From: Candidatus Bathyarchaeia archaeon
GTDB taxonomy: Archaea; Thermoproteota; Bathyarchaeia; 40CM-2-53-6
Direction: 5' to 3'
Assembly: GCA_035935655.1 (NCBI GenBank)
Contig: DASYWW010000040.1
Coordinates: 186,001 to 250,000, forward strand
Length of the DNA: 64,000 bases
Shown here in pieces: positions 48,291 through 63,567 of this stretch (the first letter of the stretch is position 1; every line of letters starts with the position of its first letter). Position numbers and translations under genes: made by a program. The notes beneath the pieces were generated by a model. It did not search any database. It had not been told where the DNA came from and saw only the letters and a list, made by a program, of their open reading frames with translations.

Positions 48291-48604
48291 CCACCTAGAA
48301 CCAATTCGACGGCCTTCTTGGCGGCAGCGTCTTTCCTGCTCTCGAAGAGTTTCTTGTAATTTTCAAGTAGCGAGTCGGTTTCCACGTCTGAGGTTCTCGC
48401 GTCGGCCTCCGCTTTCTCCCGCGCCTCTCGAAGCATCTGGGCTTTTCGCTGTTCTGCCTCAGCTGTTGAGGCTTGCCGAACCTTCCTAGCTTCTTCCGAG
48501 GCACGAGCCTGAATTTCTCGAGCCTTTGACTCCGCTTCCTCGACAATCCGTTTGGCTTGTCCTTCAGTCTCCACAATCTTCTTTACAGCGTCGATTCCGG
48601 ACAA
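48287..48604 (-). CDS. atpH: A/V-type ATP synthase subunit H (peripheral stalk)
   Basis: 105 residues, almost entirely one right-handed coiled coil of Ala, Glu, Lys and Arg (VKKIVETEGQAKRIVEEAES, then AREKAEADARTSD) ending AKKAVELVLGG, as in archaeal AhaH/subunit G. First gene of the leftward ATPase set. TTG start; divergent from the next gene with 86 bp between. Confidence 0.85.
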   Translation of the reverse strand: MSGIDAVKKIVETEGQAKRIVEEAESKAREIQARASEEARKVRQASTAEAEQRKAQMLREAREKAEADARTSDVETDSLLENYKKLFESRKDAAAKKAVELVLGG

Positions 48605-48666
48605 GCGATTTCTGCTCCAAATGCACCATTAGGTCGCGTTTTCGAATTCGTAGTTTGAGTGCGCGC

Positions 48667-48673
48667 TATAAAA
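48667..48673 (+). promoter_or_regulatory. TATA box of the amidohydrolase-like gene
   Basis: TATAAAA about 24 bp before TTG 48691, implying a nearly leaderless message and excluding the longer reading from 48526. Confidence 0.5.
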
Positions 48674-48690
48674 CTGTTCGAAGAAGGGTT

Positions 48691-49317
48691 TTGATACAGT
48701 TTCCAATTCTTTACTCTACATACGAGGTCGCTGAAGTGCCCGTCAAGATAATTCACCCGGACCACATAGAAATCATGGGTCTAGGGCGCGTACTTCTGAC
48801 CGCTCCTCCTGCCACTAGCTCCGACGCGGACCTTCACATGGGATCAATCGTTGAGGAAGCGGCACTGACTTCGAGGTCCCACGCAGTCATAGGCAAGGTC
48901 AACAGGGAATTCTTGGATCCGAATAGGATTCAGTCCGTGCAAACGGAGCTGAGAAGGAGCATCGAGGAATTCATTACGGAAGATGGCATCCGGTATATTC
49001 TGGAGATCCAAGGGAAAAGAGAACCAGGCGTGGACATTAGGACGGTCGCAGCCCAGACAAGTTCCGACTCTACGATCGAGTTAGTGAGGGCAAGGTTAGT
49101 CAACGATTTCAATGTGGGTGCGAACCCCGAGAACAAGAGCGACAAGCATACAGGCACAGATACGAGTCACGGGAAGAAGAATGCGGATGACAACCTCTCA
49201 TCTGTTGAGCAGATCCAAATTCAGTTCGGTCATGAAGAGAGACACTTTCTGAGGGAGAAGGTGATCAGAGACATCTCCGAGATAGCCGATATTCTGAATG
49301 GGCAGTTAGCATCCTAG
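48691..49317 (+). CDS. N-formylglutamate amidohydrolase-like protein
   Basis: 208 residues from TTG 48691 (GTG 48736 is another possible start). Segments: ATSSDADLHMGSIVEEAALT, VIGKVNREFLDPNR, IRYILEIQGKREPGVDI, then QIQIQFGHEERHFLREKVIR. The order Asp/His, N-R, a strand ending in a polar residue where the family has DxHG, and a late Gln-Ile-Glu-like strand matches N-formylglutamate amidohydrolase-like proteins. The usual DIHG is EIQG here, so zinc-dependent catalysis may be altered or lost. Its stop overlaps that of nuoN by 4 bp. Confidence 0.5.
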   Translation: MIQFPILYSTYEVAEVPVKIIHPDHIEIMGLGRVLLTAPPATSSDADLHMGSIVEEAALTSRSHAVIGKVNREFLDPNRIQSVQTELRRSIEEFITEDGIRYILEIQGKREPGVDIRTVAAQTSSDSTIELVRARLVNDFNVGANPENKSDKHTGTDTSHGKKNADDNLSSVEQIQIQFGHEERHFLREKVIRDISEIADILNGQLAS

Positions 49318-50774
49318 CGTGGGACTAGTGCCGCCGCAGCGCCTTGAACTAGTCGAATCCAAGGGTCGGGATAGATACCTATGGCGAAGATCAGAATTGT
49401 GGCAGCCCAAAGAACGGTCATGTACACACGTGGTTCTGGAATCTTGGACTGATCTGCCGGTTCGTCAAAATACATTCTCTTAATGATCCAACCATAGTAG
49501 CTCATACTGAAGCCACTGTTGATGAGAGCAGCTAAGGCGAGATAGCCGCCCCAGCTATATGGGGAATAGATCGAGCCGGTGAAGAGCATCACTTTGCTGA
49601 AGAACCCATTCAGTGGGGGCACTCCTGCAAGGCCGAGGAAAATTACTGCGATATTCAGAGATGTTTGGGGCATTCTTCGAGATAGACCATTGAAAGATTC
49701 AAGGTCCGTAACCGAGAGCCTGGTAGCAACCGCTGCAGCAGCTACGAATGCAGCTGTCTTCAGAATAGAATAATTCAGAACGTGGAAGAGTCCACCTGCT
49801 AGACCCAACGGCACATTCGTTACCGTGAAGGGTGTAGCCAAAGCCATTAGAATGTAGCCAGCCTGGGCGATGCTGGAATAAGCTAAGAGTCGAGTGAAGC
49901 TTTTCTGCATAAGAGCCGCGACGTTCCCTACACTCATTGTTACTACGGCCACAATAGCAAAAGTCGAGTAGAAATCCACGCTGAAAGCTGAGATCCCCAC
50001 TATGAAAACTCGAAAGGCCGCGGCGAATGCTGCCATCTTTGCGCCAGCCGCCAAAAAAGCACCAATTGTTACGGGGGCTCCTTCGAAAGCGTCAGGTATC
50101 CACATGTGAAAGGGAACGACTGCCATCTTCACCCCGAACCCGACGATGAAGAGAACTATGGCAAGGACTCCAAATGGGCGGACATCGGGCCCTGACGTAG
50201 ATAAGGAGCTTGCAATGGCTGTTAGCCCAGTAGAGCCTGTGACGCCGAAAACTAGGGAGATGGCGTAGACAATAAACGCGGAGGAGAGCGCCGAGAGAAC
50301 GAAGAATTTCATGGCTGCCTCGTTAGAGTTCGGATCTTTCTTCCTGAAAGCGGTTAGAGCATAGGTAGGAATGCTCATCAATTCCCAGCCAACATAGAGA
50401 AGTATCAGGTCCATCGAAGCAGCCAGGACAATCATTCCGAGAGTCGAAAGAAGGAGAAGCCCGAAGAACGGTCCTTTGTTGGGATCCTCTCGCATGTATT
50501 GGAGTGAGGCAACCGTGACGAAGATTGCTACGATCAGGAGAACCCCTGAGAAGAACAGGGTAAACAGATCAACTTGGAGTCCCCCGAAAGATACGCGCGA
50601 AGGACTCGTGAACCCAAGCCACACAGTCGACACTAGAGCCACAGCCAGACCCAGGATCCCGACAAAGGGGGCGAGACCAAGCTTCGATTTTCTGAGCCGG
50701 AGAAACCCCGCGGGAGTCGCGAGGAGTCCGAATACTGCCAAGCTGAGAAACGGAGCCAGCGAGAGAAGAGCCAT
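49314..50774 (-). CDS. nuoN: NADH-quinone oxidoreductase-like subunit N
   Basis: 486 residues, about 14 helices, Mrp antiporter-like family. Seen are LYVGWELMSIPTYALTAF (Glu of the half-channel), VKMAVVPFHMWIPDAFEGAP (central Lys), ALMQKSFTRLLAYSSIAQAG and GVPPLNGFFSKVMLFTGSIY, where the last-channel residue is Lys as in NuoN. Last gene of the leftward operon. No NADH-binding subunits are present; the electron donor is unknown. Confidence 0.92.
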   Translation of the reverse strand: MALLSLAPFLSLAVFGLLATPAGFLRLRKSKLGLAPFVGILGLAVALVSTVWLGFTSPSRVSFGGLQVDLFTLFFSGVLLIVAIFVTVASLQYMREDPNKGPFFGLLLLSTLGMIVLAASMDLILLYVGWELMSIPTYALTAFRKKDPNSNEAAMKFFVLSALSSAFIVYAISLVFGVTGSTGLTAIASSLSTSGPDVRPFGVLAIVLFIVGFGVKMAVVPFHMWIPDAFEGAPVTIGAFLAAGAKMAAFAAAFRVFIVGISAFSVDFYSTFAIVAVVTMSVGNVAALMQKSFTRLLAYSSIAQAGYILMALATPFTVTNVPLGLAGGLFHVLNYSILKTAAFVAAAAVATRLSVTDLESFNGLSRRMPQTSLNIAVIFLGLAGVPPLNGFFSKVMLFTGSIYSPYSWGGYLALAALINSGFSMSYYGWIIKRMYFDEPADQSKIPEPRVYMTVLWAATILIFAIGIYPDPWIRLVQGAAAALVPR

Positions 50775-50780
50775 CCTAGA

Positions 50781-52298
50781 TCACTTTGCACCAAATCCGA
50801 CTATCGTTCCAACCCACTTCTCCACTGTCGGCGTTATTACACTCCCGAGCACTGGTGGAGGATACACGCCGAAGATCAGCAACGGCACGAGAAATGCAAC
50901 CAGTATCAGGATCGAGTGAAGATGCAGCTCGTTCTTGGGACCGACCGGCGGGGTCATCGCGACACGTCGAAGCATCCAGAGGAAGTATCCGACGGTCAGA
51001 GCTGGCGCGACGATGGCGATCGCAAAAACATAGCTCACGTTAAGAGCGCCCTGAATCACGAGATACTCGCTGATGAAATTGGCAAATCCGGGAACCGCCA
51101 TTGCGGCCATCGAAGCCAGAAAGAGGAGTGTAACCGTCTGAGGCATCTTTCCCCTCAGCCCCTTTAGTTCGTCAATGTTCCGGGTTCCAGTATGTTCGTG
51201 AATGTATCCCGACATAAGGAAGAGCATTCCAACTGCAAGGCCATGGCTGAACATCTGAAAGACTGCTCCAGAAACACCCGCGACGGTTGCCGTGAACGCC
51301 CCGAGCAAAACGTAGCCCATGTGATTGACACTCGTAAGAGCAATCATTCTCTTCAGATCCCGAGCAACAAGGGCAACGGATGCGCCATAGATGATAGTAA
51401 TGAGACCGATTGTCGTGAAGTAGGGCCAGAGGACACTCACTGCCTTAGGGAAGAGCAACAAGTTGTACCTGATCAACCCATAACCTCCCATCTTGAGGAG
51501 TAAACCAGCAAGAAGAACACTGACAGGCGCCGGAGCTTCGACATGCGCATCAGGCAACCAAGTGTGAAGCGGAAAAATCGGAAGCTTGACCGCGAATCCG
51601 ATGAAAGTCGTAACTGCCACTGATACCTGCAAGGGCAGTGCAAGGCTAGGAATCCTGGCCGCCAGAACATCATAATCGAACGATGGCCCCCCTGAATAAG
51701 CAGAGGTTCCAGTCCAGGCGTAAAGAGCGAGAAAACCGAAGAGCATCACCGCGCTACCGGAATAGGTGAAAATGAGGAACTTCAAGGAGGCATATCTTCG
51801 GCGGGGTCCTCCCCAGATTCCGATGAAAAAGAACATTGGAATGAGAACGATCTCCCAGAAAAGATAGAACAGAATCAGGTTAAGGGAAGTGAAGACGCCG
51901 ATAATTCCCGTTTCGAAAATGAGAAAGAGAGCATAGTACTCTGCGTGCTTGAAGGTAATCTGATCCCAGGATCCCGCAGCTGACAAGAGGCTCAGAAACG
52001 TCGCTATCATAAGGAGTGGAAGACTGATGCCGTCGATCCCAACCCTATAGTTGAGCCCAAAGGATCCCGCCCATGGGGCACTTTCGGTTAGCTGGAAGCA
52101 GTTCAGAGCCAACCCACCGGGGCATCCTGATGGGCCGTATTGGAAAACTACGAGAACTAGAATTGAGATTGCGAATACTATGGCGGTGGTCCCGACTCCT
52201 AGAGTCTTTGCTACCCTGGCGTTTTTCCTGCCGAGAATGTATGTTGGCGCGGCAAGTATTGCGGGGAGAAAAACCGCGATCGAGAGGAGCCCGATCAT
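50781..52298 (-). CDS. nuoM: NADH-quinone oxidoreductase-like subunit M (first copy, bacterial-like position)
   Basis: 505 residues, 14 helices. Motifs: LFYLFWEIVLIPMFFFIGIW, VKLPIFPLHTWLPDAHVEAP, ALVARDLKRMIALTSVNHMG and GFANFISEYLVIQGAL. Channel Glu and Lys are conserved. It lies between nuoL and nuoN, the place NuoM has in bacterial L-M-N operons, and follows nuoL directly. It differs clearly from the second M gene. Confidence 0.92.
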   Translation of the reverse strand: MIGLLSIAVFLPAILAAPTYILGRKNARVAKTLGVGTTAIVFAISILVLVVFQYGPSGCPGGLALNCFQLTESAPWAGSFGLNYRVGIDGISLPLLMIATFLSLLSAAGSWDQITFKHAEYYALFLIFETGIIGVFTSLNLILFYLFWEIVLIPMFFFIGIWGGPRRRYASLKFLIFTYSGSAVMLFGFLALYAWTGTSAYSGGPSFDYDVLAARIPSLALPLQVSVAVTTFIGFAVKLPIFPLHTWLPDAHVEAPAPVSVLLAGLLLKMGGYGLIRYNLLLFPKAVSVLWPYFTTIGLITIIYGASVALVARDLKRMIALTSVNHMGYVLLGAFTATVAGVSGAVFQMFSHGLAVGMLFLMSGYIHEHTGTRNIDELKGLRGKMPQTVTLLFLASMAAMAVPGFANFISEYLVIQGALNVSYVFAIAIVAPALTVGYFLWMLRRVAMTPPVGPKNELHLHSILILVAFLVPLLIFGVYPPPVLGSVITPTVEKWVGTIVGFGAK

Positions 52299-54389
52299 CT
52301 AGGTGGCTCCGACGACGAACAGCATGTAGGCGAGCAGAAGGATTATTCCGATGGCGAAGCCGATGATGTACTGTTCTGTTACTCCTGTCTGGAGCCTTCG
52401 GAGGAGGTTGCTGAGCCGGGAACCGTAAGATGCAACCTCGTTTGCGGCTCGGTCAACAACTTGAGTGTCAAGCTGATCGCTCGCCCGTGAATAGTCCATG
52501 ATGTCTCTACCAATCGTGTTGTTTAGCCTGTTCCAGATCCCTTGTTCGACAAGCTCGTAGAGTCCTCGACTTGCGGCGAGCAGGCCTGACACGAATACTT
52601 TGTAGTAGATGGCGTCTAGGTACCAGCGATTGTAGAGGAATCGCTGAATGGGGTTCATGTCCGTTTTGAATTCGTAAAGTTTCTTGAAGTAGAGGAGATA
52701 TCCAACTACGCCGCCAATGACCGCCACCATGGTGCTCACGGAGAACAACAGAAGATCGGTAATACCAGAAGTTGGGCTAGTCGCCGCGGGGAGTTTGTAC
52801 GCGGCTGAGCTGAACGTGTTCGCGAGATACGCGACCAGTGGACCACTGTAGAAAGGATAAGCTAGTCCCAGGGCCAGACTGCCAACTGCCAGAAGTAAGT
52901 AGGGAATAAGCATAGTGAAGCCAGCCTCGTGTGGATGCTTTCCACCCTCCGTCAATTCCATCACGTGTCTGCTAGGCTTCCCGGCGAGTGTGATCCCTAG
53001 CATTCTGACTGTGTAGAAACCCGTGATGAATGCTGTGGCGAGCGCCAGTCCGTAGAGAATGTATTGTCCGCCGAGGAAGCTAACGGAGAGTATCGCGTCT
53101 TTTGTCCAGAACCCGCTGAATGGTGGAATACCCATCAGGGATAACCCTGCCAAAAGCATTGACGCGGAAGTAAGCCTCATCGCCTTTGCCAACCCGCCCA
53201 TTTCGTCCATGAAACGTGATCCCGCCACGTGCAACACCCATCCGGCGGCTAGGAAGAGTGAAGCCTTGAACACGGCGTGGCTGAGAAGGTGAAAGAGTCC
53301 TGCGGAATATCCTGCCAGAAAGTTAGCGCTGAGCCCTGCAACTCCGAGGGCAAGCATCATGTAACCGATTTGAGAGATCGTGGAGTATGCAAGGACCTTC
53401 TTTATTTCGCGAGCGACCGCGGCCTGACTCGCTGCCAAGAGTGCAGTGAATGCGCCTACCCAAGCGATCACGCCGAAGAATTGAGGCACCTGGTTGAATT
53501 GAGATAACGCGATGAAAAATACGGGTCCCATTCTTCCTGTCAGGAAGACTCCGGCCTTGACCATTGTTGCAGCGTGAATCAGGGCGGAAACCGATGCGGG
53601 ACCAGTCATTGCATCTGGGAGCCATTCTTGCAAGGGAAACTGGGCCGACTTTCCGATGGGTCCTCCGAAGAAAAGTAGTGCCGCGGGGAGTAGAAGGCCG
53701 AGTCGAGCTAGATTCGCAGCCCAGCTAGCTGAGCCGCCAAGTTGCAATACCAATTGGTTGTAGTTGAAGGTCCGGGCGAACGCGTAGATCAGAAAGATTG
53801 CGATCAGCAACGCGATATCTCCTATTCTTGTCATTATGAACGCTTTCATTCCTGCCTTTGTCGCGGAGTATTCTTCCGAGACGCCAAGAGCCTTGTCCCC
53901 TGGGCTACCTACCCAGAATTGTGGCTCGTCGCGATAGAAGTGACCTATCAACGCGTACGAGCAAAGGCCTACTCCTTCCCAGCCGAAGAACATCATCAAG
54001 AGATTGTCAGAGAGAACTAGCAACAGCATGTTTCCAATGAAGAGGTTCATGAAGAACCAGTATCGGGTTAGGCCGAACTCGCCTTTCATGTAGCCAACGC
54101 TGTAAATCATGATGAGGAGACTGATCCAGGCAACGATGTTCGCCATGAACATGCTAAGAGGATCAACCAGAATTCCAGCGTTGATGTTGAGAGACGGAAT
54201 CCAAGCAACGGTGTAATCTCCGCTCGAGACAGTCAATGAGGAGACAGTCGCCAATACAGCTGCGACAAACGTGAAACCGACAGCGGTTACGTCACGAACT
54301 CTAGAATGAATCTTGGCGAAAATCGGTGTAAGAAGCGCGCCCACCAGGGGAGTGACCCAGATTAGCCATACGAGAAGAGAGCTAGCCAA
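52299..54389 (-). CDS. nuoL: NADH-quinone oxidoreductase-like subunit L
   Basis: 696 residues, longer than E. coli NuoL. Core: MMFFGWEGVGLCSYALIGHF, SAQFPLQEWLPDAMTGPASV, VAREIKKVLAYSTISQIGYM, GIPPFSGFWTKDAILSVSF. The C-terminal 150 residues hold the lateral amphipathic helix (about 560-670) and a final anchor (YIIGFAIGIILLLAYMLFVV). A long lateral arm would be needed to embrace an extra antiporter subunit. Stop and start of neighbours are 0-4 bp apart. Confidence 0.93.
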   Translation of the reverse strand: MASSLLVWLIWVTPLVGALLTPIFAKIHSRVRDVTAVGFTFVAAVLATVSSLTVSSGDYTVAWIPSLNINAGILVDPLSMFMANIVAWISLLIMIYSVGYMKGEFGLTRYWFFMNLFIGNMLLLVLSDNLLMMFFGWEGVGLCSYALIGHFYRDEPQFWVGSPGDKALGVSEEYSATKAGMKAFIMTRIGDIALLIAIFLIYAFARTFNYNQLVLQLGGSASWAANLARLGLLLPAALLFFGGPIGKSAQFPLQEWLPDAMTGPASVSALIHAATMVKAGVFLTGRMGPVFFIALSQFNQVPQFFGVIAWVGAFTALLAASQAAVAREIKKVLAYSTISQIGYMMLALGVAGLSANFLAGYSAGLFHLLSHAVFKASLFLAAGWVLHVAGSRFMDEMGGLAKAMRLTSASMLLAGLSLMGIPPFSGFWTKDAILSVSFLGGQYILYGLALATAFITGFYTVRMLGITLAGKPSRHVMELTEGGKHPHEAGFTMLIPYLLLAVGSLALGLAYPFYSGPLVAYLANTFSSAAYKLPAATSPTSGITDLLLFSVSTMVAVIGGVVGYLLYFKKLYEFKTDMNPIQRFLYNRWYLDAIYYKVFVSGLLAASRGLYELVEQGIWNRLNNTIGRDIMDYSRASDQLDTQVVDRAANEVASYGSRLSNLLRRLQTGVTEQYIIGFAIGIILLLAYMLFVVGAT

Positions 54390-54393
54390 TCCT

Positions 54394-55899
54394 CTAAGAC
54401 CCCACTATCGCTCTTGCCGCGGAGAGGAGACGGCCAAGTATGGGCTCAGGGTAGATACCCAGGATTATGGTGACAATGCTAAGGGTGATGAGTGGAAGAG
54501 TGATTGTCCAGGGCGCTTCCTTGACGTCGGAGGTATCCGAATTTGGCGCTCCGAAGAAAATCTTCTTCATCGCCATTAACGAATAACCTGCGGTGAGAGC
54601 GGTCGCAATGATTCCTAGGGCTGCGATTACAATGCGGTACTCCGATGCTGTGTCGGTGGCTCTTACAAATCCGCCTTGAAATAGAAAGAACTCGGACAGG
54701 AATCCATTGGTGGAGGGTAGGCCTGCAAGAGTTAGGGACCCGATGAAGGCTGCGGTGGCGGTGATAGGCATTTTGCCTGCAAGTCCTCCGAGCTTGCTCA
54801 GGCTTCTCTCGCCCCGGACCTGTAGCATTACTGCTCCGACTACGATGAAGAGTATTCCTTTGGCCGTCCCATTGCTCACGTACTGGAACATTGATCCTGA
54901 AACGCCAAACGAGTTGAATGCGGCCAGCCCGAATAGGATGTAGCCCATCTGGCTGATGCTCGAGTATGCTAGCAGTCTCTTGATGTCATCTTGGACCAAA
55001 GCCATGGCACTGCCATAAATCATTGTAATCAGCGCCCACCCCGCGAAGAAAGCGGAGAAAGTAAGGAAGGATTGTGGGAAGATCGTCATGACGATTCTAA
55101 CGGTGGCGTATCCACCTATTCCCGTCATGGCCGCGGCTAGAATCGTACTGATCGGGGTCGGTGCTTCAGCGTATGCCGACGGAAGCCAGACGTGGAGGCC
55201 GAACTGGCCAATCTTCACAAAGAACCCGAAGCACATTGCTGCGACAATTCCAAGACGGAGGGTTGTTGAGATGAGTCCCGGATTTACAGCAAGGTTGTTG
55301 ATTACGAGATCCATGTCGGTAACGCCTGTCAGAAAGGCGGTGACTAGTATTCCAACAAGGAACACCAGGGCTCCCACGTGCGTCCAGATGAAGTATGTCA
55401 ACGAAATTCTCTCTTTTTCTCCGTACCCCCATTCAGCGATGAGGAAGAAGGAGGGAACGAGCATTATCTCAAAGAAGAGATAGAACTCGATCAGATTTGT
55501 TGCGAGAACAGTCCCGATCATTCCCAGAGAGTAGAGTGCATAGAGGCTGTAGTACAGTCCATAGCGTCCTGGGTCATCGCCTATTCTCTGACGCATGTAT
55601 GGAACGGAGAAGAGGGAGACTAGAGCTGTCAGGAGACATATTATGAAGAGTATTGGAAGGCTCAGATTGTCGACCCGGAGGCCGAAGTTTCCAATTGGAG
55701 ACCATGAGTACAGTTCCTGGTAGGTTCCTTGATTAGATCCAGACCCCTGAAGCGCGGCGTATAGAATCGTTGCGAGTGGGATGAGTAGGAGGGCGAATGA
55801 AACGAATCCGGTGTTTTCCTTTAGCGTTCTTGCTGTAGCGAATAGGAGTGGAATCCCTATCAGCGGTACTACTATTGCACCGATTAGAAGCAGTGTCAT
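54394..55899 (-). CDS. nuoM: NADH-quinone oxidoreductase-like subunit M (second copy, archaeal type)
   Basis: 501 residues, 14 helices. Motifs: FYLFFEIMLVPSFFLIAEWG, VKIGQFGLHVWLPSAYAEAP, ALVQDDIKRLLAYSSISQMG, GLPSTNGFLSEFFLFQGGFV. Placement between nuoK and nuoL is the usual one in Thaumarchaeota and Sulfolobus. Glu and Lys of the proton path are kept. With the other M it gives four antiporter-like subunits (L, M, M, N) in one operon. Confidence 0.92.
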   Translation of the reverse strand: MTLLLIGAIVVPLIGIPLLFATARTLKENTGFVSFALLLIPLATILYAALQGSGSNQGTYQELYSWSPIGNFGLRVDNLSLPILFIICLLTALVSLFSVPYMRQRIGDDPGRYGLYYSLYALYSLGMIGTVLATNLIEFYLFFEIMLVPSFFLIAEWGYGEKERISLTYFIWTHVGALVFLVGILVTAFLTGVTDMDLVINNLAVNPGLISTTLRLGIVAAMCFGFFVKIGQFGLHVWLPSAYAEAPTPISTILAAAMTGIGGYATVRIVMTIFPQSFLTFSAFFAGWALITMIYGSAMALVQDDIKRLLAYSSISQMGYILFGLAAFNSFGVSGSMFQYVSNGTAKGILFIVVGAVMLQVRGERSLSKLGGLAGKMPITATAAFIGSLTLAGLPSTNGFLSEFFLFQGGFVRATDTASEYRIVIAALGIIATALTAGYSLMAMKKIFFGAPNSDTSDVKEAPWTITLPLITLSIVTIILGIYPEPILGRLLSAARAIVGS

Positions 55900-55905
55900 C
55901 TAGGT

Positions 55906-56220
55906 CTAACCTTTCAGTTTCGATAGCTTTGACAGATCGATCTCGGTGTTTAGTCGGGAGACAAGGATGATTATGGCGAGTCCAACTGCAGCTTCCATTG
56001 CGGCAAGTGCAATTGTGAACAGTACTAGCACTTGCCCGGTTACTATGGGGGGACTACGGAGGCGTGCGAAGGCGATGATGTTAAGATTAGCAGCGTTGTA
56101 GATCAGTTCTACGGAGAACAAGATGCGAATGGCGTTCCGCTTCGTTGTGAGACCGTAGATTCCGATCCCCAGTAGGATTACTGAGACTGCAAAGAAGCTC
56201 GACAAAGGCTCCATTGTCAT
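55906..56220 (-). CDS. nuoK: NADH-quinone oxidoreductase-like subunit K
   Basis: 104 residues, three helices (LSSFFAVSVILLGIGIYGLT, RILFSVELIYNAANLNIIAF, VLVLFTIALAAMEAAVGLAI). The two membrane Glu residues (SVELIYNA and AAMEAAVG) of the proton path are present. Overlaps nuoJ by 4 bp. Confidence 0.93.
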   Translation of the reverse strand: MTMEPLSSFFAVSVILLGIGIYGLTTKRNAIRILFSVELIYNAANLNIIAFARLRSPPIVTGQVLVLFTIALAAMEAAVGLAIIILVSRLNTEIDLSKLSKLKG

Positions 56221-56711
56221 TGCCCTCGATCCGTCTTAGACAATGCCAGCGCGCCAATTACCGCGGCCGCCATTACTAGTGACATGAATTCTAGTTGAAC
56301 GCCATAGTCTTTCAAGAGAGATGTACTGAATAGAGAGAGATCGCACCCAGATCCGCAAGAATCTTGTCCAGGGAACGCTGTTGCACTGGCAAGGGCACCG
56401 ATCATTCCTAGTAGCAACGAAACTAGGATCGCCGTGAGAAGCGACACTCGTTTCAACCCTAGAGGGGTCTCTCCCATCTTCGGGCCGACAAGCATGACTG
56501 TGAATAGAATCAGAACGACTACGGCGCCGATGTATACTGCGATCTGAAACCAGCCCACATAGGCCGCATCGAGAAGGAAGAAGAGTCCTGCTACCCCTAG
56601 GAAAGCGATTCCAAGCGCTGCCGCCCCGTAAACAAGGTCTCTCGCTTCAATCGCCAATATCCCTGCGCCTATCGTCACTCCTGCGAAGGCGAGAAACACG
56701 ATATCTGTCAT
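56217..56711 (-). CDS. nuoJ: NADH-quinone oxidoreductase-like subunit J
   Basis: 164 residues, five helices. FLLDAAYVGWFQIAVYIGAV followed by VVLILFTVMLVG is the conserved NuoJ segment (helix 3 with its pi-bulge). Located between nuoH and nuoK as usual; in most organisms nuoI sits between H and J but is absent here. Confidence 0.92.
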   Translation of the reverse strand: MTDIVFLAFAGVTIGAGILAIEARDLVYGAAALGIAFLGVAGLFFLLDAAYVGWFQIAVYIGAVVVLILFTVMLVGPKMGETPLGLKRVSLLTAILVSLLLGMIGALASATAFPGQDSCGSGCDLSLFSTSLLKDYGVQLEFMSLVMAAAVIGALALSKTDRGQ

Positions 56712-56720
56712 CTTTTTTGA

Positions 56721-57728
56721 TCAGAACGTTGGCAGTCCGACGACCAATAGGTACGTGATTCCAATGTTTACAATCGCGAGCGTGAGCAGAACGGTCCATC
56801 CCGCCCTGAGAAGTTGGTCGAGACGGACTCTTGGAAATGTGGATCGAAGTAGCATTATCAATACAATTACTACGAGGGCTTTGAGGAGCATCCAGAAGAG
56901 CGGGGGTAGAAAGCTCGGTCCGAGGAAGCCTCCTAGATAGATTGTTGCGAAAAGTGCCGAGAAAGCGTAGAGCTTCACAAAGCCTGGACCCTGAGCTGCG
57001 AGGAATAGGACGCCAGGATACTCGGCTTGCCAACCCATCATGATCTCGGATTCCGCTTCGGGAAGGTCGAATGGAAGTCGCTCCATCTCTGCGACACTGG
57101 TCACCAAGAAGATGAATGCTCCAAGCGCTTGCGGAATGATGAACCACCCGTTAGTCTGGGCTGATACTATCTGAGCGAGATTCATGGTTCCCGCCATCAT
57201 TATCACTCCGAGAGCCGAAAGCCAGAGTGGAATTTCGTACGCCGTCTGCTGGAAGAGTGCTCGAAGACCTCCGATGAAAGGGAACTTGCTGTTAGCACTC
57301 CATCCCGCTAGCAGGATGAGAGTGGGAGACAAAGTGATGATTGCCAGGAAGGCTGGAAGCCCCACCTCGATGTTCGCGATTTGAAGCCCGGGTGCAAATG
57401 GGATCAGCCCAACGAGGGCCGCGCCAAGCACTAGACCCGTTGTGGGAGCCATTATGAAAAAGAACGCGTCGGAGCTCTCTGGAACGAATAGCTCTTTGAA
57501 TGAGAGCTTGATCAGATCTGCGAACATCTGAAGAATTCCGCCTGCGGGGCTCGCGTATAGCGGACCAATTCGGAGCTGCACTCGTGCGGTAACCTTGCGT
57601 TCCAACCACCCCAGCAGCGCGCCGATGATAGCGATTGATAGGAGGCCCGGAAAGAGGACTATTTCGAGAAATAGTGGGCTAGTGAGCATGTCAAATATCG
57701 GTTGTAATGGTCCAAGAATTGGCGCCAA
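56721..57728 (-). CDS. nuoH: NADH-quinone oxidoreductase-like subunit H
   Basis: 335 residues, eight helices. GWLERKVTARVQLRIGPLYA, then MERLPFDLPEAESEIMMGWQ and AEYPGV are the quinone-tunnel motifs with conserved Arg and Glu. C-terminal RSTFPRVRLDQLLRAGW. This is the anchor of the peripheral arm, whose B, C, D and I genes are not in the window. Confidence 0.94.
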   Translation of the reverse strand: MAPILGPLQPIFDMLTSPLFLEIVLFPGLLSIAIIGALLGWLERKVTARVQLRIGPLYASPAGGILQMFADLIKLSFKELFVPESSDAFFFIMAPTTGLVLGAALVGLIPFAPGLQIANIEVGLPAFLAIITLSPTLILLAGWSANSKFPFIGGLRALFQQTAYEIPLWLSALGVIMMAGTMNLAQIVSAQTNGWFIIPQALGAFIFLVTSVAEMERLPFDLPEAESEIMMGWQAEYPGVLFLAAQGPGFVKLYAFSALFATIYLGGFLGPSFLPPLFWMLLKALVVIVLIMLLRSTFPRVRLDQLLRAGWTVLLTLAIVNIGITYLLVVGLPTF

Positions 57729-57744
57729 TCTCCGGATTAGACTC

Positions 57745-58116
57745 CTACCAGTTCTCCCGGTGATCGGCTAGATGCAGGGCGTAACCCAACGGGATCAGGA
57801 GCACAACAATGAAGACAAGAACCGGAACCGATCCTGACGCGCCAAGAGCCCTTAGATTCAACCCCCAGGCGAATAAGAACATCGCAATAACGTCGTAGAC
57901 GACGAACATCAAGAGATAGGGATAGTATTGAATGATGAATCGGGTCCTGCCGGGGCCCGCGGCGATTTGTCCTGACTCGAAAGGTTTCTTCTTTTCAGGG
58001 GTTGGGCGGGGGTCCCTTGGGGTGACGAATAGTCTTAGGACTATGACTAGGGCGACGGTCGAGACAAAAAGAAAGGCGATGTAGGCCCCGATCTCCGGGA
58101 TTCCCTGTGCGACCAT
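57745..58116 (-). CDS. nuoA: NADH-quinone oxidoreductase-like subunit A
   Basis: 123 residues, three helices: IGAYIAFLFVSTVALVIVLR, then KKPFESGQIAAGPGRTRFII with the conserved ESG loop, FVVYDVIAMFLFAWGLNLRA (helix 2, D/E ligand replaced in part) and a third helix. It heads the operon behind a strong TATA box. Confidence 0.9.
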   Translation of the reverse strand: MVAQGIPEIGAYIAFLFVSTVALVIVLRLFVTPRDPRPTPEKKKPFESGQIAAGPGRTRFIIQYYPYLLMFVVYDVIAMFLFAWGLNLRALGASGSVPVLVFIVVLLIPLGYALHLADHRENW

Positions 58117-58195: not shown

Positions 58196-59128
58196 CTATT
58201 CCTTCCTCTTCCACAGATAATCGACGTATTCTTCGAGAATCTTCCGGTTTCTCAACCGTTTTACCTTCAGCAACGAAGCCTTCGCCTCAATTGCATAGTC
58301 TCTCGCGCGTTTCCGTGCAAATTCTAGAGATCCCGTTTTCCTAAGAAGTTGAAGGACCTCTTTGTTGCTATGACCGTTGTTCGAGTTCAACACATCAGAG
58401 CTATGGTTGGGACGAGACGCCTCATGAAGACAGTGCGAAGTCACGATGTTCGGTCCCTTCAACAGCTGCTCCCCAGAACCATTGTGGAAATCAAGTACGT
58501 CATCTTGAATCTGAAACGCCATTCCGCCTGACCTCCCGAATTTCTGCATGTTGACAAGATCCTTTCCCTCTATCCCGGCAATTGCAGCTCCGATACCCGC
58601 AGCACTACCAAACAGAGAGGCCGTCTTCAAATCAGCAATCGCAATACACTCACTTACACTCGCGTTCAAGTCGGAAATAATGTCCAAAAGTTCTCCTCTA
58701 CTGACATCTACTAGAGTCGAGCCAATCATTCTCATAACCTCCGCGTTCTTGTAGTTCGACAAGAGCTGAACCCCCTTAGACGCGAGGAATAATCCCGACG
58801 TCAAGGCTTTCTCGTTACTGAACGCCATATGGACGGACGGAGCACCTCTCCGAACCTGGTCCTTATCGATCAGATCGTCAAAAACGAGGGTGGCAGCGTG
58901 AATTATCTCAAGCGCCGCAGCCGCGTCAAGCGCATCCTCAGGATCTCCCCCAAGAGCTTTCGTCGACAGCACGACCAATAGAGGCCTACAGCGTTTGCCT
59001 CCCGTCTTGAACATGTATTTGATAATCTGATTTGCTTCCTCTCGATCGAAATTCGTCTCAAGAGTATTGTCAATTTTTTCTTGTATCGGACCTCTCCAAC
59101 TCTTGAAGACAGGAGGAAAGACACTCAT
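58196..59128 (-). CDS. Polyprenyl diphosphate synthase (geranylgeranyl type likely)
   Basis: 310 residues. First Asp-rich motif in AATLVFDDLIDKDQVRRG, second in MAFQIQDDVLDFHNGSGEQL; lysine GGKRCRPLL near residue 57 binds diphosphate. It condenses IPP with allylic diphosphates for membrane lipids. In place of the usual D-K-T after the second motif there is a polar insertion of about 25 residues (HEASRPNHSSDVLNSNNGHS). The TATA box ATTAAATATG near 59180 serves this gene. Confidence 0.88.
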   Translation of the reverse strand: MSVFPPVFKSWRGPIQEKIDNTLETNFDREEANQIIKYMFKTGGKRCRPLLVVLSTKALGGDPEDALDAAAALEIIHAATLVFDDLIDKDQVRRGAPSVHMAFSNEKALTSGLFLASKGVQLLSNYKNAEVMRMIGSTLVDVSRGELLDIISDLNASVSECIAIADLKTASLFGSAAGIGAAIAGIEGKDLVNMQKFGRSGGMAFQIQDDVLDFHNGSGEQLLKGPNIVTSHCLHEASRPNHSSDVLNSNNGHSNKEVLQLLRKTGSLEFARKRARDYAIEAKASLLKVKRLRNRKILEEYVDYLWKRKE

Positions 59129-59286: not shown

Positions 59287-59727
59287 ATGGAAACAACACC
59301 TAAGCCACCGGAAGTACTAAAGTCCAAAGGCAGTCCGTGGAAGCTCATTGCGATCGTTATAGTAATACTAATCGTAGTGGGCGTCGCTGCTTACATTCTG
59401 ACCCTACCGCCATCCTCCACTACTGCGAACATACTCATCAAAGACGACAGCGCATGTGGGGCTTCGCCTCCAGATACCGCTTGCCTGTTCAGTCCCGCAT
59501 CGTACCAGGCAACAGTTAATGGTCCAGCCGTCGTCTGGAAGAATACTGGAGGAGTTCCGCACACCGCAACTTCCAATTCCACTGCGAACGGGAGCCTGCC
59601 GTCGTTTAACAGTAATTCTATCGCAATAAATGGTGGGATATTCTCTTTCACCTTTACCAAAGCAGGCAACTACTCCTATTACTGCAACATCCATCTTTGG
59701 ATGAAAGGCACCATCATCGTAAAGTAG
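59287..59727 (+). CDS. Membrane-anchored blue copper protein (plastocyanin/sulfocyanin-like)
   Basis: 146 residues: a short cytosolic part, one anchor helix (LIAIVIVILIVVGVAAYILT), then an external cupredoxin domain. Type 1 copper ligands: His in GGVPHTATS, Cys, His and Met in YYCNIHLWMKG. Several N-glycosylation sequons (NST, NGS, NYS). It should carry electrons between the cytochrome b complex and the oxidase, as sulfocyanin (SoxE) or thaumarchaeal plastocyanins do. It faces the oxidase cluster convergently. Confidence 0.92.
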   Translation: METTPKPPEVLKSKGSPWKLIAIVIVILIVVGVAAYILTLPPSSTTANILIKDDSACGASPPDTACLFSPASYQATVNGPAVVWKNTGGVPHTATSNSTANGSLPSFNSNSIAINGGIFSFTFTKAGNYSYYCNIHLWMKGTIIVK

Positions 59728-59769
59728 CTCGTTGCTTTAACATCGTCGCTTGCAGTATTCCCACCTCTC

Positions 59770-59775
59770 TTTTTT
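59770..59775 (+). terminator. T-tract after the blue copper protein gene
   Basis: Six T residues preceded by pyrimidines, 43 bp past the stop. Confidence 0.35.
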
Positions 59776-59828
59776 CTGTAATCAGGGTTTGATCGAATGG
59801 AGCGTAATGAACTGAGTACTCCGTAACT

Positions 59829-60677
59829 CTAGGATTTCACGCAAACTTGGCCCTTGAAGCTGTGTAATGATCTCGCTGATATCAGCGGCGCCACGACTAG
59901 AATTGGTATGCTTACGACAACGAACGTGGTCTGAAGGGAGCCCTCAAAGAATGAGGCGGACAAAGTACCGGTCCCACCGAGCGTTGAAAGTATGGCCAGA
60001 CCCGCGCAAGTTGGACATGAAGTGAAGAGGCCGATGAAGGCTCCTATCCCTCCGAACAAGCCCCTTCCAGCGTTCTTCGTTCGAAACGATAATGTCCAAC
60101 TCGCAAAGCTTGCGTTTAGACCGACCAGCCATGAAATTGAGAAGAGCAGAAGCAAGTTGACCGGAACGAGAACCAGCCCTAGGTGTTGAGTGATGTACGC
60201 AACGACTTGTGGAGTTCCTCCAAGTGGGCTACAACAGGTGGCGATAGCCACAGAAGGTATCCCCGCGTGATATACATCTGAGAAACTGATTGAAGGTTGA
60301 AAGACGATGATCCCGGAAGCGAACGCATAGAACAAGCCATATGCGGATGAAGACGCGAAGAGCAGCCGGGAGTATCGATTTCTTGAGAAGGCCGCTGCGA
60401 CCATTCCAGTAATGGAGGATGGGGGTCCTGAGGCTTCGCCCATTGACCGGCTGGTCAAGAGGCGGGTGGCACCATAGAATAGAATTCCTAATCCGACGAT
60501 GTCAAGGCCGAATGCGAAATATGCGTAGGTTATCAGAAAGCCTTCGCCGCGGACCGCTTCCGTTTGATTCAAGGCGGCTACCATGGGATAAGTGGTGAAT
60601 CCCAAGATCACGAGAAGAGTGCCGAGAAGTACAATTGCCAACGGTGGAACCTGGCCGGATAGTGGTCGGTTTGTCAT
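59829..60677 (-). CDS. Polytopic membrane protein with CC and CPTC motifs, oxidase cluster
   Basis: 282 residues from ATG 60677 (the frame is open to 61196 but that part is a shadow of the COX4-like gene and the oxidase end). About seven or eight helices. Two Cys motifs sit at membrane edges: ATCCSPLGGTPQV (about residue 147) and FTSCPTCAGLAIL (about residue 222). They could bind copper or form a disulfide, suggesting a role in oxidase assembly or copper delivery; this is inference. I know no named family. It follows the subunit IV gene by 107 bp, at the end of the cluster. Confidence 0.6.
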   Translation of the reverse strand: MTNRPLSGQVPPLAIVLLGTLLVILGFTTYPMVAALNQTEAVRGEGFLITYAYFAFGLDIVGLGILFYGATRLLTSRSMGEASGPPSSITGMVAAAFSRNRYSRLLFASSSAYGLFYAFASGIIVFQPSISFSDVYHAGIPSVAIATCCSPLGGTPQVVAYITQHLGLVLVPVNLLLLFSISWLVGLNASFASWTLSFRTKNAGRGLFGGIGAFIGLFTSCPTCAGLAILSTLGGTGTLSASFFEGSLQTTFVVVSIPILVVAPLISARSLHSFKGQVCVKS

Positions 60678-60784
60678 AGCGTGGATTCGCCCGCTGAGTC
60701 GCGCAGCCGTGGATATTCTATGATATCGAGCAACTCCATGTCTTTCGGACCGACAAGGTCGAGATCCACTCGCTGGAATGAGTC

Positions 60785-61096
60785 TCAGTGAACGTGCAAC
60801 TGTATGAAAACTAATGACATTAGTAAGGAGGCTATTACGAGGCCGACAAGGACCCACGACGAGAGGGATCTCGGTTCGTATTTGAGGTGTTGGTAGAATA
60901 ATGCGATGAGGAGCGCCTTCATCCCGGCCAAACCTAGAAGAATGCTGACTATCAATCCATAAGAAAGAGCGACCGTTCCAAACAGCATCGATACGCCGCT
61001 CGACGCGGACGGGTACAACGCTACGATATTGACTTCTATGTCGGTGCTTCCTACAAGGATCGCGAATACGAGAAGGTAAAGGTAGGTGGTGTTCAT
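60785..61096 (-). CDS. Cytochrome c oxidase subunit IV-like protein
   Basis: 103 residues, three helices, with the bacterial/archaeal COX4 signature GMKALLIALFYQHLKYEPRS and C-terminal LVFIQLHVH. It stabilises the oxidase. Starts 8 bp after the subunit I+III gene. Confidence 0.85.
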   Translation of the reverse strand: MNTTYLYLLVFAILVGSTDIEVNIVALYPSASSGVSMLFGTVALSYGLIVSILLGLAGMKALLIALFYQHLKYEPRSLSSWVLVGLVIASLLMSLVFIQLHVH

Positions 61097-61104
61097 GGGA
61101 TCGC

Positions 61105-63567
61105 CTAGATGAGATAGAACAATGGGAATAGGAAGACCCAGACGATGTCGACGAAGTGCCAGTAGAGACCGAAGTGTTCGATCGCTTGATGATCACCTTT
61201 CAGGTAGCGCCCCTTCAGAGTGTTGGCTAGTAGATACAAGGTCATGAGCATGCCCGCGAAAACGTGAACCCCGTGAGTTCCTGTTGTGATGAAGTAACTC
61301 GTTGCCGGAAGGCCGTACGCGATCGAGAAGACCCCGTGTGACCCAAGGTAGAACCATTCTGTGGCCTTGATGTAAAGAAACGAAACGCCCAGTCCAAAGG
61401 TAGCTAGTAGGCTTGCAATCAACCCGTTACGTGATCCTATTTTTGCCGAGACGAGAGCCATGATCGCCGTGAGACTGCTTGTGAGCAGAACAAGAGTCAT
61501 TGCAAACCCGTTTCGAATCTCGAACAGTGACCCAATCTCTGGCCACGTAGGCGAATTAGTTCGAACGAAAAAGTATGCGCCAATCAGCACTCCGAAGAAG
61601 ATCACCTCTGCCCCCAAGAAAGTCCAAATTCCGAGTTTTACGTTTGGAACTTCTCGGAACGGCCAGCTCTCAACGTGGGTCTCTTCGCGTACCGAGAACC
61701 TTTCTCTGCTGTAACCATAGAGCACGATGATCCCCAGGATAGCACCGTCCGCTATCAAGGGCCAGAACGGCTGATAGGTAACAGGCGTAGTTGGACTGCT
61801 TGGTTGCCCTATCGACAACCCGAGGAAGAAGAGGAACGCCGCGAAGGCCATGACGATAGGCCAGGGACTCAGGCCTTCGAGGTGAGAATGCGAATAACCA
61901 TTTCCCACCTTCGATCCAATCGGATATCCAGTCCCATTCGGTAGAACTGGACTGTTCCCGAAATGATACGTTCCGTCCTCAGCAATGGTGGGTATGGTGT
62001 CGAAGTCATGGGCTGGTGGCGGGGAAGGAAGCGACCATTCCAGCGTCCAGCCATCCCAAGGATTCGGCCCAGAAGGCGGTCCCCTCCTCTGGCTGAGGAA
62101 GAGATTCAGAAAGAGTAGTACCTGAGCACCACCGAAGATGAAACCCCCGAGGGTGGCAAGGGAGTTTAGTGGTCCCCATCCGGTATTGGGGGCATATGTC
62201 TGGATTCTCCGCGGCATGTCCAGCAGGAGAAACATCGGGAAGTAGAGGATGTTAAATCCGATGAAGGAAACGACAAAGTGTATCTTGGCGACGGTTTCGT
62301 TGTACATTCTTCCGGTAAATTTTGGAAACCAGTAATACAATCCGGCGATCAGTCCCATGATGCTTCCGCCAACCATAATGTAGTGGAAGTGAGCCACGAC
62401 GAAATACGTGCCCCTTAACGCGTGATCAAGAGCCACGGATGCGAGGTATACTCCCGTGATTCCCCCGATCACAAAGAGCGCGATAGCTCCGAGAGCAAAG
62501 AGCGCCGCTGCCTTCAGCTTGACCCTTGCTTTGATCAGCGTCTCTATCATAGCGATTACCATCACGTCAAACGGCAGCGAGACCGCGATTGTTGTGACGG
62601 TGTATAGCTTGGTTGACGTCAATCCGATTCCTGTCACGAACATGTGATGACCCCAAACGATGAAGCTGATGATGGCTGCAGCTATCATGGAACCAATGAC
62701 ATACTTGCTACCGTAGAGAGGCCTTCGCGTGAACGTTGGAATCACATCGGCGATAAGGCCGATGGCTGGGAACAGAACGATGTACACTTCAGGATGCCCG
62801 AAGAACCAGAATACGTTGTCCCAGAGTAGCGCTCCACCTTGTAGGGAGGAGAAATAGAAGGTTCCGAAGGATCGGTCAACATACAGCAAGAGGACGGCGG
62901 CTAGGAACGATGGAAATGCGTAGAGCATCATGAAGATCGTCACTAGAATCGCCCACGGGAAGACTGGCATGTTCCTCAGCTTCATGCCGGGAGCGCGCAT
63001 CTTGAACATGGTCACGAGAAAGTTTACCGAACTCATCGTTATCGAAACTGTGATCAGGATGAGAGCGGCAGCTCCGACGTTGATTCCAATCGACGGAGCG
63101 AATTGGAATGCAGTCTGAGGAGAATAGAGCGTCCAGCCGAGGTCGGGGGCGCCGAAGATGAAACTCATTATGATAGCAACACCGCTGAATAGGTAGAACC
63201 AGTAGCTCATCGCGTTGAGCCTTGGGAATGCAAGATCTCGAGCTCCAATCTGTAGTGGAATGATGTAGTTTGCGAAGCCGAACGCGAATGGGGAAAGAAC
63301 CCAGAATATCATCAGAAGGCCGTGCACCGTAACGAACTGATTGTAGAGGCTCTCGGTCAGAATGTTGTTGTCTGGAACTGACAGTTGTGTTCGCATTGTG
63401 AGAGCTAATAATCCAGCTGCGATGAAAAAGAAGAGAGATGTCACAAGATAGAGGATTCCAACCTCTTTGTGGTTGGTTGTGAACAGCCACCTCCTGACTC
63501 TGGCCGGAAAGATATCTTGGCTCATATGGTCACTTTGCACCGCTATACCAGAGTTGGAAGTCTCCAA
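61105..63567 (-). CDS. Heme-copper oxygen reductase, fused subunits I and III
   Basis: 820 residues. Subunit I (about 1-540): helix VI motif FWFFGHPEVYIVLFPAIGLI with the CuB His, cross-linked Tyr and channel Glu of the A1 type; WGHHMFVTG with two CuB His; VVAHFHYIMVGG with the heme His pair. After a soluble linker (about 515-600), subunit III (about 625-820) has PNVKLGIWTFLGAEVIFFGV and GLYWHFVDIVWVFLFPLFYL. I+III fusions are known in SoxM of Sulfolobus and in some bacterial caa3 enzymes. It overlaps subunit II by 38 bp. Confidence 0.95.
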   Translation of the reverse strand: METSNSGIAVQSDHMSQDIFPARVRRWLFTTNHKEVGILYLVTSLFFFIAAGLLALTMRTQLSVPDNNILTESLYNQFVTVHGLLMIFWVLSPFAFGFANYIIPLQIGARDLAFPRLNAMSYWFYLFSGVAIIMSFIFGAPDLGWTLYSPQTAFQFAPSIGINVGAAALILITVSITMSSVNFLVTMFKMRAPGMKLRNMPVFPWAILVTIFMMLYAFPSFLAAVLLLYVDRSFGTFYFSSLQGGALLWDNVFWFFGHPEVYIVLFPAIGLIADVIPTFTRRPLYGSKYVIGSMIAAAIISFIVWGHHMFVTGIGLTSTKLYTVTTIAVSLPFDVMVIAMIETLIKARVKLKAAALFALGAIALFVIGGITGVYLASVALDHALRGTYFVVAHFHYIMVGGSIMGLIAGLYYWFPKFTGRMYNETVAKIHFVVSFIGFNILYFPMFLLLDMPRRIQTYAPNTGWGPLNSLATLGGFIFGGAQVLLFLNLFLSQRRGPPSGPNPWDGWTLEWSLPSPPPAHDFDTIPTIAEDGTYHFGNSPVLPNGTGYPIGSKVGNGYSHSHLEGLSPWPIVMAFAAFLFFLGLSIGQPSSPTTPVTYQPFWPLIADGAILGIIVLYGYSRERFSVREETHVESWPFREVPNVKLGIWTFLGAEVIFFGVLIGAYFFVRTNSPTWPEIGSLFEIRNGFAMTLVLLTSSLTAIMALVSAKIGSRNGLIASLLATFGLGVSFLYIKATEWFYLGSHGVFSIAYGLPATSYFITTGTHGVHVFAGMLMTLYLLANTLKGRYLKGDHQAIEHFGLYWHFVDIVWVFLFPLFYLI

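Follow-up and report, generated by a model that had tools for sequence, protein, structure and literature searches.

Two operons of a soil bathyarchaeon probably make the organism's only complete complex I, an enzyme of the 2M type (that is, with a second NuoM) that would have four antiporter-like subunits and an FrhB-like electron input; the probability of this reading is put at about three in four. The membrane arm is encoded at positions 49314–58116, on the minus strand, of a 64,000-nucleotide stretch of DNA from Candidatus Bathyarchaeia (the window, meaning the whole stretch that was analysed), in which eight open reading frames (ORFs) follow one another in the order nuoA-H-J-K-M1-L-M2-N. 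The source is a metagenome-assembled genome (MAG) of 2.50 Mb in 65 contigs, with a completeness of 95.8 % and a contamination of 4.5 %, in which the quinone-side genes nuoB, nuoC, nuoD and nuoI are found on another contig (C13). NuoB and NuoD occur once each in this genome, antiporter-type genes number four and NuoF is absent, so a single 2M complex I is the most likely product of the two loci. A Thaumarchaeota MAG (nzgw5, locus L059) has the same subunits in a single operon and was therefore counted in favour of one complex. The 2M kind itself is already known, and what is new here is its occurrence in soil Bathyarchaeota, its division between two operons and its FrhB-like input gene. The most surprising part, more novel than the 2M complex, is an intein placed at an iron-sulfur ligand of NuoI.

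Bathyarchaeota are mostly treated as anaerobes. The 2M-type complex I was reportedly first described by Chadwick et al. in 2018. Such 2M complexes are described from heterotrophic marine Thaumarchaea, which lack NuoEFG (PMC7300363), and from Angelarchaeales (PMC9038741), and the soil Bathyarchaeota of related work are described as aerobic degraders of peptides and amino acids (PMC5103831). The complex described here shares with the 2M-type enzymes, as described in PMC7300363, PMC9040806 and PMC9038741, the second NuoM, a NuoL insertion of about 26 residues and the absence of NuoF, and differs from them in its two operons, the FrhB/FpoF-like gene after nuoI, the nuoI intein and its host, a family of Bathyarchaeota. 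Among open-licence papers, no report of a 2M complex I in Bathyarchaeota was found, and nothing direct on the respiration of soil Bathyarchaeota. The window places a four-antiporter complex I in this group, in the company of an H+-pyrophosphatase, a heme-copper oxidase and a cupredoxin.

Quinone-side genes in a second locus

The two loci were compared across the family of the source genome (f1; 21 genomes from four genera) and its order (38 genomes). M1-L-M2 was present on a single contig in 17 of the 21 family genomes and interrupted by contig ends in two others (G008 and G012), while the search gave no match in G009 and G010. None of the 18 membrane-arm stretches of the family (L010, which is the window's own, and 17 others) contained nuoB, C, D or I. 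The source genome has a single NuoB and a single NuoD, the latter matched as two stretches of one frame, and both lie on contig C13 in a cluster B-C-D-I with an FrhB/FpoF-like gene. The original prediction had these four genes missing from the operon, as they are; they are present in the genome, and their loss was rejected, since all four are on C13. What looks like the lack of a quinone arm can thus be the division of an operon. No genes of the complex I set other than B, C, D, I, FrhB and the intein were seen in any of the 19 named family loci around NuoD (3.7–21 kb each). The closest named NuoD records came from soil MAGs of Candidatus Bathyarchaeota (BA_* isolates) and from Crenarchaeota archaeon 13_1_40CM_3_52_17.

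The Thaumarchaeota operon L059 reads A-B-C-D-H-I-J-K-M1-L-M2-N, and the gene order of the window is this order minus B-C-D and I. The L059 complex resembles that of the window in its subunits, in the order M1-L-M2-N, in a lateral span of 71 in NuoL (defined below) and in the sequences of M1, L, M2 and N, which are 47–50 % identical. It differs in that its operon is continuous and includes B, C, D and I, with no intein and no FrhB-like gene seen in 12.8 kb. Relatives in the same order that have one M (L119, L122) show the arrangement B-C-D-H-I-J-K-L-M-N. Another split point was observed in G369 (L115:1-5200), where a 2M operon H-I-J-K-M-L-M-N has no A, B, C or D in the upstream 5.2 kb. G020 has a further B-C-D-H-I-L-N set (L117) and G005 a further L-N pair (L116), both with a NuoL lateral span of 18.

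Two lineages of NuoM

M and N proteins were compared in a tree of 42 sequences, from which rows of up to 400 aa and some near relatives had been omitted. In it, M1 of the family, of L059 and of G369 shares a clade with the M of Archaeoglobus (100/99), and M2 from the same sources forms another clade (100/99), adjacent to Escherichia coli NuoM. The M of G033 and G034, same-order members with one M, fell outside both clades. The prediction that one M has the archaeal position (before L) and the other the bacterial position (between L and N) agrees with these groupings, in which the placement of the E. coli and Archaeoglobus proteins is unsure because some branches are long. Median ratios of nonsynonymous to synonymous substitution rates (dN/dS), over 15 pairs of near relatives, were 0.033 for M1, 0.040 for M2, 0.057 for L and 0.038 for N, which are rough values given a dS near 1. 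By their sequences, M1 and M2 are old, separate lineages under strong purifying selection.

The lysine of transmembrane helix 8 (TMH8) is given as a key residue in PMC7419157. In E. coli NuoM numbering, M2 retains E144, K234, K265, H322, H348 and E407 in 17 of 17 rows, and nuoN retains all five of the E. coli NuoN residues examined. In M1, E144, K234 and E407 are invariant over the rows compared. At position K265 (TMH8), Gly is found in all 17 two-M rows as well as in Archaeoglobus (18/18), and Lys in G033 and G034; within the genus, two histidine positions of M1 hold Gln or Asn.

A PF00361 search of the source genome found no antiporter genes beyond the four in the operon (matched as five hidden Markov model stretches), so no Mrp/Mbh set could own the second M. 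An origin of the second M in a separate Mrp/Mbh complex, which the original prediction named as a possible refutation, was rejected on this result.

The lateral helix of NuoL

NuoL, at 696 aa, had been predicted to be elongated for the extra subunit. The lateral span was counted as the residues separating two conserved positions, a Phe and a Gly, that flank the lateral helix; the span table omits the NuoL of G005 (split frames), and the counts omit L182 (G031), which is poorly aligned in the anchor region. The span was 71 in all 19 two-M rows (17 from the family, L059 and G369), and short in four one-M rows, with 45 in G033 and G034, 46 in Archaeoglobaceae and 41 in E. coli. The elongation thus stands for the helix, which is 26 residues longer in the window than in same-order relatives with one M (71 vs 45). 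It does not stand for the protein as a whole: total length is uninformative because short-span NuoLs reach 722 aa, and as evidence of a 2M complex it was rejected, short-span proteins of 682–722 aa being common in the phylum.

Nor does the helix discriminate. The 35 well-aligned NuoL loci (26 from the phylum and nine from the same order) comprised 11 with spans of 71–74 and 24 with spans of 45–46, the phylum sample being biased because only its best-scoring loci were taken. Besides G369, long spans were present in ten genomes: in the stretches retrieved, nine have one M-type gene, and G352, read from a contig of 5 kb, has none. Exactly three antiporter genes per genome were found in G233, G120, G227 and G278, and spans of 72–74 with one M near L in G187, G107, G348, G266 and G245. 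Because long spans also occur with one M, a long helix fits a second M and proves none, and it was rejected as proof of a 2M complex. In this phylum, a second NuoM is not provable from NuoL length or from a long lateral helix. PMC9040806 describes a 26-residue insertion in the lateral helix (HL) of extra-subunit complexes, cites a similar length for the 2M NuoL of Nitrospira and reports such insertions also in NuoL of the other complexes I treated there.

A NuoL tree from which the helix was excluded (L182 and seven near-duplicate rows being omitted) required the long-helix state to change six times, and no fewer than four of these changes are forced. In a tandem-copy test, the profile of the 2M NuoL group gave a best offset of 26 with weak support, and the window NuoL alone gave no significant result (p about 0.5). 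Outside the 2M group, nine of the ten long-helix rows showed a clear copy at offset 27 or 28 (p ≤0.002 with both shuffles); in the remaining row, G352, the copy was less marked (p 0.03). Long-span NuoLs with one M were observed at L147/L192, L194, L195, L196, L244 and L246–L248, several with a tandem copy of 27–28 residues. Two M1-type genes stand in tandem beside a long-helix NuoL in G144 (L242:9372-14430), which looks like a 2M complex I of different make-up that arose independently.

Electron input

The product of the gene after nuoI contains both the N-terminal and the C-terminal FrhB/FdhB domain (PF04422, 79 bits; PF04432, 125 bits) and an N-terminus resembling a two-cluster (4Fe-4S) ferredoxin. 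Its best match among solved structures was 8riu_B (E 5.6e-55), followed by beta subunits of F420-reducing hydrogenases. The gene lies directly 3′ of nuoI in 17 of 18 evaluable family genomes; it was not found in the stretch read from G020, and the contigs of three genomes end inside the intein. NuoF (PF01512) was absent from the source genome by a search that was positive in nine of 14 controls. CofD, the one cof gene searched, was present in 18 of 21 family genomes, in 17 of them above the cut-off. Because the FrhB-like gene is next to nuoI and CofD is present, F420H2 is a plausible donor, and ferredoxin may be an alternative. The Fpo and Fqo complexes of methanogens and Archaeoglobus are alike in having B, C, D, I and an FpoF-like protein without an NADH module, and unlike in that the present system has a second M, a protein nearer FrhB than FpoF, and split loci. 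The enzyme was not filed as a true Fpo because the cut-off of the FpoF model was missed.

Proposed complex and alternative readings

In the proposed complex, the window operon would supply the membrane arm A-H-J-K-M1-L-M2-N, and the second operon would supply B, C, D and I for the quinone side and electron input, together with the FrhB/FpoF-like iron-sulfur flavoprotein. The flavoprotein would probably substitute for the NADH module, with electrons entering from F420H2 or ferredoxin and leaving to quinone. M1 and M2 would sit side by side, held together with N by the NuoL helix, and one extra proton per two electrons would be expected. NuoI would be made as an intein-bearing precursor whose splicing, to judge from the motifs, would be needed to complete the second [4Fe-4S] motif.

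Several points weigh against this proposal. The two loci are on separate contigs of a MAG with 4.5 % contamination, and the long lateral helix occurs also in 15 genomes (spans 72–74), of which 14 have one M. The FrhB-like protein scored under its NCBIfam cut-offs (FrhB subfamily, 219 of 269 bits; FpoF, 118 of 475). AlphaFold models were too poor and were left unused, with a mean predicted local distance difference test score (pLDDT) of 43.5 for NuoL (three sequences) and 30.5 for the NuoI precursor (nine sequences). Pumping by M1 is uncertain because the TMH8 lysine is absent, an absence shared by Archaeoglobus, which has one M. With potentials of −0.34 V for F420, about −0.5 V for ferredoxin and −0.08 V for menaquinone, the movement of five protons for each electron pair would require a proton-motive force of less than about 0.10 V with F420H2 as donor, as against less than about 0.17 V with ferredoxin; menaquinone being the assumed quinone, these potentials put five protons from F420H2 under real tension.

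The last two points lead to the possibility that the second M is structural or vestigial, with M1 (or M2) part of the arm and no extra proton moved, so that the enzyme would behave as an ordinary archaeal complex I. Besides the Gly at the TMH8 lysine, the Gln or Asn at two histidine positions and energetics that leave little room for a fifth proton, this would suit the long helices without a second M, which indicate that the build of the arm does not depend strictly on how many M subunits there are. It is nevertheless held to be unlikely: M1 retains E144, K234 and E407 throughout, its dN/dS is as low as that of M2 and N, and the sole M of the Archaeoglobus operon also lacks the lysine. Very unlikely is a division into separate machines, an antiporter-like membrane module and a soluble or differently anchored F420-linked BCDI-FrhB oxidoreductase. 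The two operons are unlinked in every family genome seen, as such machines would be, but the quinone site of complex I lies in NuoA and NuoH, whose genes belong to the membrane-arm operon, the genome has no other B or D, and L059 holds one operon in the same relative order.

A recent tandem duplication of nuoM, without functional meaning, could explain why L is flanked by two M genes. It is hardly credible, since the tree assigns M1 and M2 to different clades (100/99 each) that are common to L059 and G369, and both are conserved across the family under strong purifying selection; barring long-branch effects, the tree refutes it. Reverse operation in vivo, in which quinol would be oxidised and F420 or ferredoxin reduced by the proton-motive force, the extra subunit adding drive, is proposed in PMC9040806 for extra-subunit enzymes of chemolithoautotrophs. 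The heme-copper oxidase, cupredoxin and H+-pyrophosphatase of the window could supply that force, but soil Bathyarchaeota, described as peptide and amino-acid degraders in PMC5103831, would have no obvious need of such a reaction, which is regarded as distinctly improbable here.

An intein in NuoI

The nuoI gene of the source genome has 537 codons, for about 101 residues, an insert of 373 residues and a remainder starting with Cys. The insert begins with a Cys, which occupies the expected position of the third Cys in the second CxxCxxCxxxCP motif; the Cys after the insert restores this motif, so the +1 residue is a predicted [4Fe-4S] ligand. Cys1, TxxH, a C-terminal AHN (a His-Asn end) and a +1 Cys were all found, the splicing motifs of class 1 inteins. 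Of the domain models, LAGLIDADG_3 scored above its cut-off, and Hint_2 and Intein_splicing below theirs; the nearest solved relative was the PI-PkoII intein (E 2e-11). On these motifs, the insert is an intein of class 1 type with its splicing motifs intact. It resembles LAGLIDADG inteins of that class in the splicing motifs, in LAGLIDADG_3 and in the relation to PI-PkoII, and is unlike class 1 inteins generally in having NuoI as its host protein and a predicted iron-sulfur ligand as its +1 Cys. No report of an intein in NuoI or NADH-quinone oxidoreductase was found among open-licence papers, judged by titles.

The intein was present in 14 of the 21 family genomes (ten whole, one with a deletion in G006, and three truncated by contig ends in G003, G007 and G012), and the other seven have an uninterrupted nuoI, that is, intein-free alleles of the same site. 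The G006 intein (L021 / L046:11474-12540) carries a frame-breaking deletion of 55 bp, for which real loss, a split intein and assembly error are indistinguishable. G011, which is empty, and G012, which has the intein, show no differences in the proteins compared and share 98.06 % identity across 2476 bases. On a tree of NuoD and NuoI, intein presence changed at least five times. Median dS was 0.66 for the intein (ten pairs) vs 1.50 for the flanking nuoD and 1.15 for frhB in the same genomes, and intein dN/dS was 0.147. These values, which are rough estimates, fit horizontal spread together with selection.

A search of 398 genomes of the phylum (E ≤1e-35), which gives a lower bound, found an intein at the same site of NuoI in at least two distant archaea, G369 and G133 (38 % and 40 % identity). 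In G186 (L250:7534-9537), a NuoI intein occupies another position, in front of the initial Cys of the second cluster motif. Related inteins were also observed directly before cysteines (CPG|C, GNP|C) in other proteins, presumably 2-oxoacid oxidoreductase beta-like in L129, L131, L132, L133, L137 and L138 and IscU/NifU-like scaffolds in L134 and L136; the cysteines that follow look like iron-sulfur ligands.

Assembly of complex I might be gated by NuoI splicing: NuoI would first be an inert precursor, and redox-, metal- or iron-sensitive excision of the intein at the ligand cysteine would set the amount of complete input arm. This is a tentative suggestion, and quite an unlikely one. If true, the inteins that recur at two ligand cysteines of one NuoI cluster, across four or more lineages of archaea, would be a tolerated or useful switch and not purely parasitic. 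Close MAGs that differ in the NuoI intein offer a natural test of protein splicing as a control of a respiratory complex.

The membrane-arm operon and its neighbours

NCBIfam naming agreed with all eight subunit names, and together with the ORFs it bears out the predicted order with two distinct NuoM genes (Table 1).

Table 1. Genes of the membrane-arm operon and its conserved upstream neighbour (window coordinates)
Gene	Position	Strand	Description
nuoA	57745..58116	-	123 aa; weak NCBIfam scores, NuoA the sole name; 91–97 % identity in near relatives
nuoH	56721..57728	-	335 aa; NCBIfam 313 bits (cut-off 305)
nuoJ	56217..56711	-	164 aa; ORF and NCBIfam
nuoK	55906..56220	-	104 aa; ORF and NCBIfam
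nuoM1	54394..55899	-	501 aa; archaeal FqoM/FpoM-type; 329 bits to NDH_I_M (cut-off 263.8)
nuoL	52299..54389	-	696 aa; TTG start; 501 bits to NDH_I_L (cut-off 407.5)
nuoM2	50781..52298	-	505 aa; 470 bits to NDH_I_M (cut-off 263.8)
nuoN	49314..50774	-	486 aa; best model NuoN, 323.8 bits, slightly below the cut-off of 332.6
polyprenyl (isoprenyl diphosphate) synthase	58196..59128	-	directly upstream of nuoA; conserved neighbour

A-type ATPase genes were found beyond nuoN, and between them and nuoN lies an ORF of 263 codons (48526–49317, plus strand) with no match in Pfam or NCBIfam. A membrane H+-pyrophosphatase gene is at 40300–42492. The upstream side carries a cupredoxin gene, a gene in which COX1 and COX3 are fused, and a COX4-like gene (59287–63567), and the polyprenyl synthase next to nuoA possibly has a role in making the quinone side chain.

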